Positions 1-29,079 of a stretch of 64,000 nucleotides of DNA are shown one piece after another (the first letter of the stretch is position 1; each line of letters starts with the position of its first letter). Source of the stretch: Trichodesmium erythraeum GBRTRLIN201 (lineage in GTDB: Bacteria; Cyanobacteriota; Cyanobacteriia; Cyanobacteriales; Microcoleaceae); NCBI GenBank assembly GCA_018457135.1, contig JAGGDU010000195.1, positions 22,315 to 86,314 of the forward strand. Direction: 5' to 3'. The notes beneath the pieces were generated by a model, which saw only the letters and a list, made by a program, of their open reading frames with translations, made no database searches and was not told the DNA's origin. The translations under genes were made by a program, and so were the position numbers.

Positions 1-328
1 GGCTAATACATTCACTAATTCATCCCAGAAAATTAGATGATTTTCTAATTCCTGATTTCCGGAATTATGGGGTTGAGATAAATCTAATTTTTCGGAGTCA
101 AAATTTTGATTGTCTGATGGAAGGTTCTCCATATTTGCCAGAATATTTTTTCTACAGATAGTCTCAGTAGTAGTTAAGTTCTCAGAATTTTTAGGAGAAT
201 TTCTTTTGGTAGTTCTATTTTTTAGAGACTGATTTTTAGATGCGGCAAATTTGGCTAATACATTCACTAATTCATCCCAGAAAATTAGATGATTTTCTAA
301 TTCCTGATTTCCGGAATTATGGGGTTGA
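1..328 (-). repeat. 252-bp in-frame direct repeat inside the intein
   Basis: Bases 1-76 recur almost exactly at 253-328, a period of 252 bp or 84 codons, so the repeat keeps the intein frame open. Beyond about 76 bases the copies diverge (70-115 versus 322-370). The encoded core includes NSGNQELENHLIFWDELVN twice. The left copy is cut by the window edge, so more units may follow. Confidence 0.85.
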
Positions 329-1092
329 AGTAAATCGAATAGATAAAAATTTTTAGAATCAAAACCACCAATATCTTCCATCAAATTTTTCTGAGATAAA
401 GCATCAGTAATTGTCAAATGCCATTTCCCATCACAATAACAATTTCTGTAGGTTGCAAATGTGAATTCCTCCCTATGTGACCTCTGACTTTTAACTTCTT
501 TAACGACTTTTATTTTTTCAGTTCTCTTCTCTTCAAATTTTTCAATACCACTAACAATTCCAAACCTAAGCAAAATATGTTGTATTTGCCTAATCAACTT
601 TTCACTAACTGTAGAATAACCAAAACATACTATCTTGTTCTGATATATTTTCACCCATCCATCTAAGGAAAATAGATATCTAATAAATAAAGCTAATTGG
701 GATCTCTCTAACTGAAATACAAGAGGAAAAAGATATAAATTGTCAAAATTAATCAGGGAAGAAAACTTACTTTCTGAAATAGTTTCATTACCAAAAATAT
801 TTAACCGACGGGGTACAGCTATTTTTTCTCCAACCTGTAATTTGGATAAAGGTTTCCAACCATTAACCGTCAAAAAAGGATGAGTAATTGTGGTCTCTAC
901 AAATCTTCCTAATTTTGTGGTTACTCTAAATATAGGTTTAATTCCATCATCAATAAAAGCACTAGGTTTAGTCAAATAAAACTTGCTATTTTTTCCCAAA
1001 GTTAATAATTCTATTTCCTGCCTTTTATAAACCTCTGCTAAAGTAACTAAACTACCATCTTTTTGCAAAACTAAAGTATCATAAGCAGCACA
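1..1092 (-). other. Intein in the DnaB P-loop (N-terminal and central part)
   Basis: This is a self-splicing protein insert beginning at DnaB residue 213 with CAAYDTLVLQ, right after GRPSMGK. The starting Cys is the expected first splicing nucleophile. About 65 residues later comes TTITHPFLTVNGW, a block-B-like motif with the conserved Thr-x-x-His. The C-terminal splicing motif (His-Asn) is not reached, so 364 intein residues are visible and the total is longer. The central part after about residue 230 of the intein is low in recognisable endonuclease motifs and contains an in-frame 84-residue direct repeat. P-loop insertion means unspliced protein cannot hydrolyse ATP; this is inferred from the insertion site. 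Confidence 0.88.
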
Positions 1093-1728
1093 TTTTCCCA
1101 TAGAAGGTCTACCTGCAACAATAATCAAATCAGACCGTTGAAAACCTCCAGTCATTGCATCCAAATCGTAAAAACCACAAGGAAGACCAGGTAAAGCAAC
1201 CCCTTCATTTCTATCTTCAATTTCCTGAAAAGTATTAATTAAAGTCTCAGAAATAGGAACTAAATCTTGTTGTGGTTTATCCTGAGTCAGAGCAAAAATT
1301 TTTTGTTCTGCTTGGTCAAGAATAATTTCTAATTTAGTAGCGGTTTGAAATCCTAAATCAAAAATTTCATTTCCAGCTTGAATTAATTTTCTACGGATAT
1401 ATTTATCGAGAACTAAAGCTGCATATTGGTCAATATTAACTGCAGAAACTGTTCGTTCTAATAGTTGAACTATTTTGACTCGCCCACCAATTTTTTCTAA
1501 TTGATTATGATCAGAAAGCCAACTGGTAACAGTCATTAAATCAGTAGGTTTGCCTTGACTATAAAGTTGGCACATTGCTTTATAAATAATTTGATGAGCT
1601 TGAATAGCAAAAAATTCTGGGTGTAACAATTCTGTGACTCGATTAATAGCTTCTGGATCAAGAAGAATACCGCCTAAAATAGCTTCTTCTGATTCAATAT
1701 TTTGGGGGGGTAAGCGATCGCTCTGCAT
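1..1728 (-). CDS. dnaB: Replicative DNA helicase DnaB, intein-containing, partial
   Basis: This is the ring helicase that unwinds DNA ahead of the replisome. The minus-strand frame opens at ATG 1728 and runs without a stop for 576 codons to the left edge, so the 3' end lies outside the window. The N-terminus reads MQSDRLPPQNIESEEAILGG, the typical DnaB N-domain start. The RecA-like domain begins near residue 190 and reaches the Walker A motif GRPSMGK at residues 206-212. At residue 213 the frame passes directly into an intein starting with Cys, so the Walker A Thr/Ser and everything after it must follow the intein beyond the edge. Identification is from the N-domain and the P-loop. rplI lies upstream on the same strand, separated by an opposite-strand gene. 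Confidence 0.93.
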   Translation of the reverse strand, partial: MQSDRLPPQNIESEEAILGGILLDPEAINRVTELLHPEFFAIQAHQIIYKAMCQLYSQGKPTDLMTVTSWLSDHNQLEKIGGRVKIVQLLERTVSAVNIDQYAALVLDKYIRRKLIQAGNEIFDLGFQTATKLEIILDQAEQKIFALTQDKPQQDLVPISETLINTFQEIEDRNEGVALPGLPCGFYDLDAMTGGFQRSDLIIVAGRPSMGKCAAYDTLVLQKDGSLVTLAEVYKRQEIELLTLGKNSKFYLTKPSAFIDDGIKPIFRVTTKLGRFVETTITHPFLTVNGWKPLSKLQVGEKIAVPRRLNIFGNETISESKFSSLINFDNLYLFPLVFQLERSQLALFIRYLFSLDGWVKIYQNKIVCFGYSTVSEKLIRQIQHILLRFGIVSGIEKFEEKRTEKIKVVKEVKSQRSHREEFTFATYRNCYCDGKWHLTITDALSQKNLMEDIGGFDSKNFYLFDLLQPHNSGNQELENHLIFWDELVNVLAKFAASKNQSLKNRTTKRNSPKNSENLTTTETICRKNILANMENLPSDNQNFDSEKLDLSQPHNSGNQELENHLIFWDELVNVLA

Positions 1729-2080
1729 TTATCTAAGATTTACTAAAAATCATTTTGTAAGTATTCAACTATCAGCTTCATTGCTTTTAAAAGAAGAAAA
1801 AGCAATTGAGAGATTGCTAATAATTATACTATTTATCAAAAAATTTTCTACATTTTATTGACGAGGGGGTAGGAGAGCAGGGGAGAGATAAAAAAATATT
1901 ATGTTTGTCTGAATATTTATCGGTTTAGTTTTCAAACTAAAGAGAAAATAGGGTTTGGATATTAAACCTCTGGAGTACACAAAAAACTGAACAAATAATT
2001 AAAATTAACCCGAGAAAAACATAATCATGATAACTTCGATGTAAAATCAATTATTTATATAATTTTGGAGGGCAAAGACA
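1729..2080. other. Intergenic region between dnaB and the PPC gene
   Basis: This is a divergent gap with both flanking genes reading away from it, so it should hold both promoters. The only clear signal is GGAGG at about 2067-2071, a good ribosome binding site for the gene at 2081. I see no RNA gene or mobile remnant. Confidence 0.6.
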
Positions 2081-4228
2081 ATGGATATTGAACGTGAGAT
2101 AAACTCATTTTTTTCTGATTTATTCGGCACAAAAGCTGATAGTAAAAGTGATTTATTTTCACTTTCAAATCATAAGATTAATTATTTCGATTCTACTTCA
2201 GATATTACCATAAAAAATTCAACTTTAGAGGATAATATAAACTCTACTGAATATTCGCTTGGTTCTTATAATTTCCTAGGAAATGAATTAGAATCTATCT
2301 CTATTAGAGATTCTGCAAGTGTTGAAAATACAGAAGAAATTGATAAAATTACAGGTGATAATTTTGATACAAATATTCAGTTAAGAGCTGGTCAAAAGTC
2401 AGATAATAAGATTGATACTGCAACTGAAATAGATATAGTTTCTGGTGAGAAAGTTAAGATAAACGATAGAATTGGCTACAAAGAAAAGGGCAAGGTTGAT
2501 AAATATGACTACTATAGTTTCGGCATATCTGAAAATATGGAAGTAAGTATTGATATGGATAAACTCCAGAAAAATGCTAATCTTCACTTATTTGATGAAA
2601 GTGGTAAAAAAGTATTGGCAAAGTCGAATAAAAGAGGTAAAAAATCAGAAAATATTACTGAATATTTAGATGCAGGAGATTATTATCTGCGGGTATCTGC
2701 TGTGGGAAATGCAAAAACTCCTTATCGCTTGATTTTAGAAAAAGTTCCTGATGATAAAAATATAGATGGAGCGAATGATTTAGGAAAATTATCTCAGAAA
2801 GAACTGAAACTTAATGATAAAATTGGCTACAAAAAAAAGGGCAAGGTTGATAAATATGACTACTATAGTTTCGGCATATCTGAAGATATGAAAGTAAATA
2901 TTGAGATGGATAAACTCCAGAAAAATGCTAATCTTCACTTATTTGATGAAAGTGGTAAAAAAGTATTGGCAAAGTCGAATAAAAGAGGTAAAAAATCAGA
3001 AAATATTACTGAATATTTAGATGCAGGAGATTATTATCTGCGGGTATCTGCTGTGGGAAATGCAAAAACTCCTTATCGCTTGATTTTAGAAAACGTTCCT
3101 GATGATAAAAGTATAGATGGAGCGAATAATTTAGGAAAATTATCTCAGAAAGAACTGAAAGTTAATGATAAAATTGGCTACAGAGAAAATGGTAAACGAG
3201 ATGGAATAGATTTGTATTTTTTTGAGATTAACGAAGAACAAGAAGTAGATATTAATCTGAATAAACTGAAGCAAAACTCTAATCTAAGATTAATTGATGA
3301 AGACGGTGAAACAGTTTTGGATAAATCGACTAACAAGGGTAAAAATTCAGAAAAAATTACAGAAGTTTTAGAACCAGGAATTTATTATGTAGAAGTTTAT
3401 GCTCAAGGTAATGCTAAAACAAATTATGAACTTAGTTTGAGTTCTCAGGAGGTTAATACAGTTTTTCCATCGGTATTAGAAACTTATGAATCAGGTACAC
3501 GAGTAGGGTTTGAAAACCGAGTTTCTTTGGAAATACCTGAAGGATGGGTTGGTAAACAAAAATCAATGTTTGAAACAATATTTGAAGGAAGATCGTTTGT
3601 TGATGGTCAGTATTTTCCATTTACACTAACCTCTACAAAGTATCCAGATGTCTATGTAGAATTAAGCGTCAGATCGAATTATTTGACAGGGCTTATACAG
3701 AACTTGGCTAATACCTGGGCAATTGACGAAACCACCTATGAACCACAAGGAAAAGCAAAGGTAAAAGGTAATCAAATTACTAATACTTATACTGCCAAAA
3801 ATTCAATATCTCAAGAAAAGTATTATGTGGTTAGTACTGTAGGGCCTAATGATGAAATTGCTACTGTGACAGTGGGTGGTTCTGTTAATAAACTAAAAGA
3901 CTATAAAGATATCGCAAATGATGTAGTTGAAAGTCTAGATTTTCCTGAACCTACTGACTGGGAAGAATTCTTTAGTGATCATTGGTTAGCTTACGCTCCG
4001 TATGGGAGCATATATGAAGGAATTTTCCTGGACGATGATCGTTCATTTTATCACATTTATGATTATTCAACGAATCGTTTTGGTACTTGGGATATTACTC
4101 AAAAAGATGAGCTAGTATTAAGATATGAAAATGGTGAAGAAAAGGTTGGGCAACTTGATGGTCCTAGTGTATCTAATAATATTATTTACGGTGAATTTGT
4201 TTATCAGGCGATAGAGAAAAATAGCTGA
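2081..4228 (+). CDS. PPC-repeat (pre-peptidase C-terminal domain) protein
   Basis: This 715-residue acidic protein has no clear signal peptide. After a Ser/Asn-rich N-terminus (1-100) come three tandem beta-rich units of 117 residues at about 130-480. Each has the PPC pattern of DYYSFGI, a helix-like L.KNANL segment, LDAGDYYLRV and YRLILE. PPC domains usually accompany secreted proteases or adhesins, but I see no protease domain here. The C-terminal 230 residues (SLEIPEGWVG onward) form a separate domain I do not recognise, ending in a beta-rich module. Units 1 and 2 are nearly identical at DNA level and unit 3 is divergent. The gene lies on the opposite strand between rplI and dnaB. Its function is unknown; extracellular or surface binding is a guess. 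Confidence 0.85.
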   Translation: MDIEREINSFFSDLFGTKADSKSDLFSLSNHKINYFDSTSDITIKNSTLEDNINSTEYSLGSYNFLGNELESISIRDSASVENTEEIDKITGDNFDTNIQLRAGQKSDNKIDTATEIDIVSGEKVKINDRIGYKEKGKVDKYDYYSFGISENMEVSIDMDKLQKNANLHLFDESGKKVLAKSNKRGKKSENITEYLDAGDYYLRVSAVGNAKTPYRLILEKVPDDKNIDGANDLGKLSQKELKLNDKIGYKKKGKVDKYDYYSFGISEDMKVNIEMDKLQKNANLHLFDESGKKVLAKSNKRGKKSENITEYLDAGDYYLRVSAVGNAKTPYRLILENVPDDKSIDGANNLGKLSQKELKVNDKIGYRENGKRDGIDLYFFEINEEQEVDINLNKLKQNSNLRLIDEDGETVLDKSTNKGKNSEKITEVLEPGIYYVEVYAQGNAKTNYELSLSSQEVNTVFPSVLETYESGTRVGFENRVSLEIPEGWVGKQKSMFETIFEGRSFVDGQYFPFTLTSTKYPDVYVELSVRSNYLTGLIQNLANTWAIDETTYEPQGKAKVKGNQITNTYTAKNSISQEKYYVVSTVGPNDEIATVTVGGSVNKLKDYKDIANDVVESLDFPEPTDWEEFFSDHWLAYAPYGSIYEGIFLDDDRSFYHIYDYSTNRFGTWDITQKDELVLRYENGEEKVGQLDGPSVSNNIIYGEFVYQAIEKNS
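2471..3523 (+). repeat. Three 351-bp tandem repeats encoding PPC units
   Basis: The period is 351 bp (117 codons). Units start at 2471, 2822 and 3173, each with the same ATTGGCTACA. Units 1 and 2 differ at only a few positions, which indicates a recent duplication; unit 3 is an older, divergent copy. Confidence 0.9.
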
Positions 4229-28196: not shown

Positions 28197-28605
28197 TTGG
28201 AAAGAAAAGTAAGTATAGTAAGGGGTCTAAATACAAATCCGGTTTCTACCATTGAAAAATAATAATGTGATATTTTTTCCCCCTGAGAATTAACCTAGAA
28301 AAAATATGACATTTTTTTCACCTCAGTATTAAGCCAGAAGATAGGTGAAAATATAATTCACGTTTTGAATATTCATCTAAACATCTATACAATAATTATT
28401 GTAATTTTCTACTGCATCCCTTTTCTGTTTCTCTCTATTCCCCAAATACTAAAAATATATTAATAAGCAAAATTCTTGTGCCACTAAGCTATTAATATCA
28501 TCTCAAAAAAAGGCAAAATACCAGTGTTATATTTAGATATAAAAAATATTAATAAAGAAGTATTTTAACATATTTTTATACTATTAATTAACAGATAATG
28601 AGTCA
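28197..28605. repeat. 409-bp tandem duplication, copy A
   Basis: This copy is identical to 28606-29014 apart from one base (G at 28204, T at 28613). It contains no gene. Near its start it carries a GGTTTCT/AGAAACC-type motif common in this genome's spacers. Confidence 0.92.
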
Positions 28606-29014
28606 TTGGAAATAAAAGTAAGTATAGTAAGGGGTCTAAATACAAATCCGGTTTCTACCATTGAAAAATAATAATGTGATATTTTTTCCCCCTGAGAATT
28701 AACCTAGAAAAAATATGACATTTTTTTCACCTCAGTATTAAGCCAGAAGATAGGTGAAAATATAATTCACGTTTTGAATATTCATCTAAACATCTATACA
28801 ATAATTATTGTAATTTTCTACTGCATCCCTTTTCTGTTTCTCTCTATTCCCCAAATACTAAAAATATATTAATAAGCAAAATTCTTGTGCCACTAAGCTA
28901 TTAATATCATCTCAAAAAAAGGCAAAATACCAGTGTTATATTTAGATATAAAAAATATTAATAAAGAAGTATTTTAACATATTTTTATACTATTAATTAA
29001 CAGATAATGAGTCA
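28606..29014. repeat. 409-bp tandem duplication, copy B
   Basis: Second copy, directly abutting the first. The near-perfect identity in otherwise eroding DNA indicates a very recent event, or an assembly artefact. Confidence 0.92.
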
Positions 29015-29079
29015 TAAGTACTAAAGTTATTTTTGGCTGGTTATCAAAACAAAAAAAATCTGATTATATGAATTAGTAG

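Follow-up and report, generated by a model that had tools for sequence, protein, structure and literature searches.

Why does an intein that interrupts the P-loop of the essential helicase DnaB carry a tandem repeat in its interior, and what, if anything, does the repeat do there? We addressed this in a window of 64,000 nucleotides, the whole stretch of DNA analysed (C195:22315-86314 of the source genome G000, a 7.2-Mb assembly in 241 contigs), at the start of which a sequence-only reading had placed an intein exactly after GRPSMGK, with an expanded in-frame repeat reaching the window edge. Related genomes were labelled by genus: g1, to which the window belongs, is Trichodesmium, and g10 and g4 are related genera, g4 being the sister genus.

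The intein and its repeat array

The locus reads from the start of DnaB into the array as follows.

1093-1728, minus strand: DnaB N-extein up to the P-loop, with GRPSMGK at 1093-1113 (PF00772, E 7.1e-32; PF03796, residues 181-216)
793-1092, minus strand: N-terminal splicing half, aa 1-100, with Cys1, block A (CAAYDTLVL) and block B (TTITHPF) (TIGR01445, PF14890)
535-738, minus strand: half endonuclease, aa 119-186, with the second LAGLIDADG motif FIRYLFSLDGWV kept and the first missing (PF14528, E 1.2e-11; alignment with repeat-less relatives)
280-420, minus strand: first, diverged copy of the unit (unit positions 34-84), which is the tail of the endonuclease remnant plus the linker to block F (unit HMM 25.5 bits)
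28-279, minus strand: complete 84-aa repeat unit of 252 bp (unit HMM 115.7 bits; profile E 2.5e-39)
1-27, minus strand: start of the next unit, cut by a 100-N scaffold gap beyond which the sequence continues the array

The dnaB frame opens with an ATG at window position 1728, and Cys1 of the intein, at 1092, directly follows GRPSMGK, the protein reading on as CAAYDTLVL; the proposed insertion point is thus borne out. A domain scan (Pfam, NCBIfam) returned the DnaB N-terminal domain, the N-terminal splicing region and one LAGLIDADG_3 domain. The intein has its nucleophile at position 1 and a block B of the TxxH form (Cys1, TTITHPF; TIGR01445 35.1 bits, cutoff 24.5). The C-terminal His-Asn, predicted to lie in adjoining sequence, was found past the scaffold gap, where block F and the terminal residues, VYDLTVPETHNFVANDICLHN, are followed by TSFA with Thr at +1 (TIGR01443 58.5 bits, cutoff 15.6); the splice motif HNFVANDICLHN before TSFA is intact. 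This C-terminal splicing half is outside the window, its last residues HN falling at C195:22004, 311 bases below, with the C-extein TSFA next. Splicing blocks A, B, F and G and the +1 Thr are intact in all eight complete inteins of the clade, and equally in the source genome when its C-terminal part is read beyond the gap. Since the P-loop of an essential protein is interrupted and the splice residues are intact, we infer that the intein is splicing-competent.

The same DnaB carries a second intein of 177 aa, without repeats (L009:4970-5500 on C195, minus strand; boundaries SG/C and HN/SIEQDAD), which is too short for a full endonuclease. Across both intein sites, dnaB was uninterrupted in 3 of the 17 genomes queried (G011, G017, G029).

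The interior block was confirmed as described: a 252-bp period, in frame, encoding 84 residues and reaching window base 1, so that large tandem units lie inside a DnaB intein. Window positions 1-84 and 253-336 agree at 82 of 84 bases and similarity beyond this is at background, so the duplication is plain as DNA over about 84 bp only, the remainder being recognisable as protein. The repeat is real, but the window itself holds only one full unit and the diverged first copy. A run of exactly 100 N (read in L009, C195:16000-26500) immediately precedes the first base of the window. Past this gap the array resumes with another copy, which agrees with window 19-133 at 105 of 115 bases, and a last partial unit before the splice motif. 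Reading on into adjoining sequence, as had been advised, therefore established that the array continues and how it ends, but the gap prevents a count of units; because it lies inside the array, the number in the source genome is a lower bound, at least two duplicated copies.

Taken as written, the 100 N give a frame with 37 stops. A gap of 119 or 371 (119+252) nucleotides gives none in 1094 or 1178 codons, any length of 119+252k keeps the frame, and 119 nucleotides would make the intein 474 aa long. By register, the missing sequence is the equivalent of window 134-252, and the likeliest cause is that the assembler collapsed a near-identical stretch there. Where no gap intervenes, as in G004, G006 and five genomes of g10, intein and host protein form one continuous frame.

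Other repeats occur in the surroundings. Another 100-N gap, adjoining short repeats, lies just downstream of dnaB (L009:4494-4593). Upstream, at window 1822-1861, is a dispersed short repeat that some twenty further contigs of this genome match at about 88-97%, and the 715-aa protein adjoining dnaB has a 351-bp in-frame tandem repeat of about 2.6 copies (window 2465-3388). A perfect-looking tandem duplication of 409 bp, 99% identical, occupies window 28197-29015. Elsewhere in the genome (G000:C4:565-1377; L013, L014) another intein-like protein has splicing and endonuclease parts that resemble those of the dnaB intein.

The half endonuclease and the origin of the unit

The repeat was said to lie in the interior, where an endonuclease is often found, and this holds; moreover, the repeat derives from the tail of this same endonuclease. 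A two-motif LAGLIDADG enzyme is not encoded here, only motif 2. In all nine clade inteins aligned, motif 1 (YLIGDG in relatives) and the stretch after it are absent and motif 2 (FIRYLFSLDGW) is present, and among the other family inteins read, the motif-1 pattern occurs in 13 of 14 and motif 2 in 14 of 14. The endonuclease is, on this sequence evidence, probably dead for homing.

The unit profile matches the endonuclease tails of the clade over unit positions 4-84, in a stretch that starts directly behind LLLRFG and runs up to the WDE preceding block F (hhalign E 4.2e-26), and these tails in turn match the tails of repeat-less relatives (E 3.2e-7; WxLTITDALSxKxFIxDIG). Compared directly with the repeat-less tails, the units align over their last 15 columns only (E 0.0033; reversed control 0.088), which is too weak by itself; the origin of the unit is therefore traced over a bridge, the first copies of the clade itself. 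In g4 (G009), the single-copy intein scores 53.9 bits with the unit HMM at its endonuclease tail, and in a tree of the DnaB N-part and N-splicing half this intein, with motif 1 already lost, branches outside g1 and g10 (supports 0.98 and 0.96).

The simplest order of events is loss of motif 1, in-frame duplication and then growth. An ancestral intein with both LAGLIDADG motifs would have lost motif 1 and the intervening DNA, a region in which relatives hold motif 1 and some also an HTH. In the common ancestor of Trichodesmium and g10, the piece of the half endonuclease from LLLRFG to WDE would then have been duplicated in frame to give the 84-aa unit. A short stretch is common to block F (GAA ATT GTT) and the endonuclease tail (GGA ATT GTT or GGA ATT ATT), and GAA ATT GTT is still found at some unit junctions, which is suggestive of a founding junction. 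Possibly G009 instead lost its repeats; this is the less simple course, and one genome is the evidence that bears on it here.

Copy number and constraint on the units

Of 61 genomes of the family, 37 matched at E 1e-30 or better, and besides the source genome we fetched stretches from 27. Six of 7 Trichodesmium genomes and all 5 of g10 show the array, without a counter-example among the readable ones; the seventh Trichodesmium, G005, is uninformative, its dnaB stopping after residue 128 of the query. Units were counted with an 84-position HMM built from 26 units. Comparing repeat number among relatives, a check that had been proposed, gave between 1 and 17 duplicated copies in addition to the endonuclease-tail copy that comes first.

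Gap-free arrays: G004, 1; G006, 3; G046, 3; G048, 6; G050, 8 (one chimeric); G049, 11; G047, 17 (two with an insertion)
Broken arrays: G000, at least 2; G001, at least 2, on two contigs both ending in the array; G002, some 12 or more, split by a 10-N gap; G003, a partial unit at a contig edge

Complete inteins accordingly range from 394 to 1739 aa in Trichodesmium and g10, with 327 aa in the one-copy G009. The array of G002 (L043) also has sub-repeats of about 42 aa, units within units. A contig of Trichodesmium sp. MAG_R02 has the same intein, identical to that at G006:C279.

In the rest of the family, 14 repeat-less loci were read and none had a unit above 10 bits (hits of at most 7.0 bits, mostly at the endonuclease tail), a result that covers these loci, with 16 further matching genomes of the 37 outside it. 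A search of 388 genomes from the same order with the unit profile gave matches in 13. In 12 of these the match is at the dnaB intein; in the other, G237, it is a weak stretch with six stops that we took as chance. Searching viral contigs gave 107 pattern matches, none confirmed. Repeat growth, which had been called unusual, is a standing feature of this lineage, and a T. erythraeum case has reportedly been published (see below), so that the description holds in part.

For 32 of 48 units, the closest unit at DNA level came from their own genome, against 7.8 on average and 19 at most in permutations; the set leaves out incomplete or odd-length copies. Identities between units reach 0.996 in G047, and other units have their nearest match in another species. 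The pattern is one of inherited unit types overlaid by recent duplication or conversion, as would arise if copies grew and shrank by recombination between units that partly homogenised them. Under codon models, the 48 units had a dN/dS of 0.665. Values were lower in the half endonuclease (0.305) and in the two splicing halves (N-terminal 0.163, C-terminal 0.050), with the reservation that conversion between units can bias such estimates. By genome, unit omega (with twice the log-likelihood difference from omega 1) was 0.703 in G047 (4.8), 0.599 in G050 (7.6), 0.621 in G002 (6.1), 0.692 in G048 (1.87) and 1.117 in G049 (0.29). Simple counting ranked the values alike, except for a lower one, 0.28, in G006. 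Since unit omega lies below 1 and neutrality is rejected over all units (27.3), the array is not fully free of constraint.

We put the probability at about 0.8 that this is a splicing-competent DnaB P-loop intein with a decayed homing endonuclease and an array that is near-neutral padding at a tolerant loop; an intein kept by vertical descent, with non-adaptive in-frame growth, is the best account. The endonuclease belongs to neither splicing half, and an in-frame insertion at its loop would for this reason be tolerated. The array would be removed with the intein at splicing, leaving normal DnaB. It had been thought that the repeats may affect the splicing rate; near-neutral units beside strongly conserved splicing halves suggest that any such effect is small.

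It is unlikely, in our estimation, that the array has a selected role, as a helical arm that binds DNA or protein or that adjusts how fast, or under which conditions, an essential helicase is spliced. Such a role would fit the retention of the array in all 11 g1 and g10 genomes where this part of dnaB is assembled, the rejection of neutrality over the units, and near-invariant unit columns (Leu78 in 48 of 48, Asn72 in 47 of 48). It sits poorly with a copy number that runs from 1 to 17 among related species and with an omega that does not differ from 1 in G049 and G048. The units also match no Pfam family: a scan of 12 units found no shared family, with nothing for member 1 and scattered weak hits in single members, and on this ground we rejected the idea that the repeat is a known domain. 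An AlphaFold run on the MAG_R02 intein with two rows had a mean pLDDT of 31 and gave no usable structure. A narrower version, to which we give slightly less credence still, is that the array is a fast-changing, length-variable control arm of weakly purified units whose number sets the rate or conditions of DnaB maturation; if so, species would differ in helicase supply by repeat number.

The endonuclease could also still be working, the repeats serving it as a new DNA-binding extension; in favour are the retention of motif 2 with its Asp and the constraint on the half endonuclease. We regard this as very improbable, given the loss of motif 1 and the DNA following it in all aligned clade inteins, a half shorter than the single-motif LAGLIDADG enzymes that act as dimers, and an array that follows the species tree and is not patchy. 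Least credible is an assembly artefact, for which one could cite the 100-N gap and the breaks inside the array in 4 of the 6 Trichodesmium assemblies with the intein (G000, G001, G002, G003); we rejected it for the existence of the repeat, since the unit is found in 10 further genomes, with gap-free arrays in seven of the relatives, one within an 855-kb contig, since a gap is what an unresolved true repeat gives, and since the copies in the source genome differ from each other, none being a misplaced duplicate, so that uncertainty is limited to copy number there.

Known DnaB inteins and significance

Padding that is near-neutral has to be set beside what is known of such inteins. Yang, Meng and Liu reportedly described the Ter DnaB-1 intein in 2004 under the title 'Intein harbouring large tandem repeats in replicative DNA helicase of Trichodesmium erythraeum'. 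It is reported to be like the present one in genus, host protein and large tandem repeats, and the kind of intein is thus already known; the source genome may even belong to this species. What may, to our knowledge, be new is where the unit came from, in which order the events took place, that the array spans two genera, and how widely its copy number ranges. Our literature search returned no account of a repeat inside an intein and did not bring up the 2004 paper, and the excerpts available of PMC1635734, PMC4649490, PMC12702839, PMC10127266, PMC5784728 and PMC1508164 hold nothing on intein repeats.

The P-loop DnaB inteins of other Microcoleaceae (L079-L092) share the insertion site, the splicing halves and the second LAGLIDADG motif, but differ in length (374-497 aa), in having for the most part both motifs, in a longer tail after the endonuclease and in the absence of the unit. 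The N-splicing half also aligns with the DnaB mini-inteins of solved structure 1mi8, 4o1r and 6frg (phmmer E 1.7e-11 to 2.2e-10), of which 1mi8 and 6frg differ as short chains of 142-169 aa without endonuclease or repeat. PMC3620165 counts natural Ter DnaB-1 among the inteins shown to splice in E. coli, and for an engineered Ter DnaB-1 mini-intein its table records no detected splicing. Should the present intein be Ter DnaB-1, the place of the deletion or the remnant itself may have a bearing on this, a result that counts against the array as simple, removable padding.

For annotation, the array explains the broken or gapped dnaB genes of several Trichodesmium draft genomes. With 1 to 17 units, the arrays also form a natural series on which one could test how large an insertion is tolerated by an intein whose host protein is essential. 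More generally, the locus would give a stepwise view of an intein after homing fails: first an endonuclease motif is lost, then what remains of the tail is duplicated, and the intein grows, up to 1739 aa, with strong selection still acting on its splicing halves.
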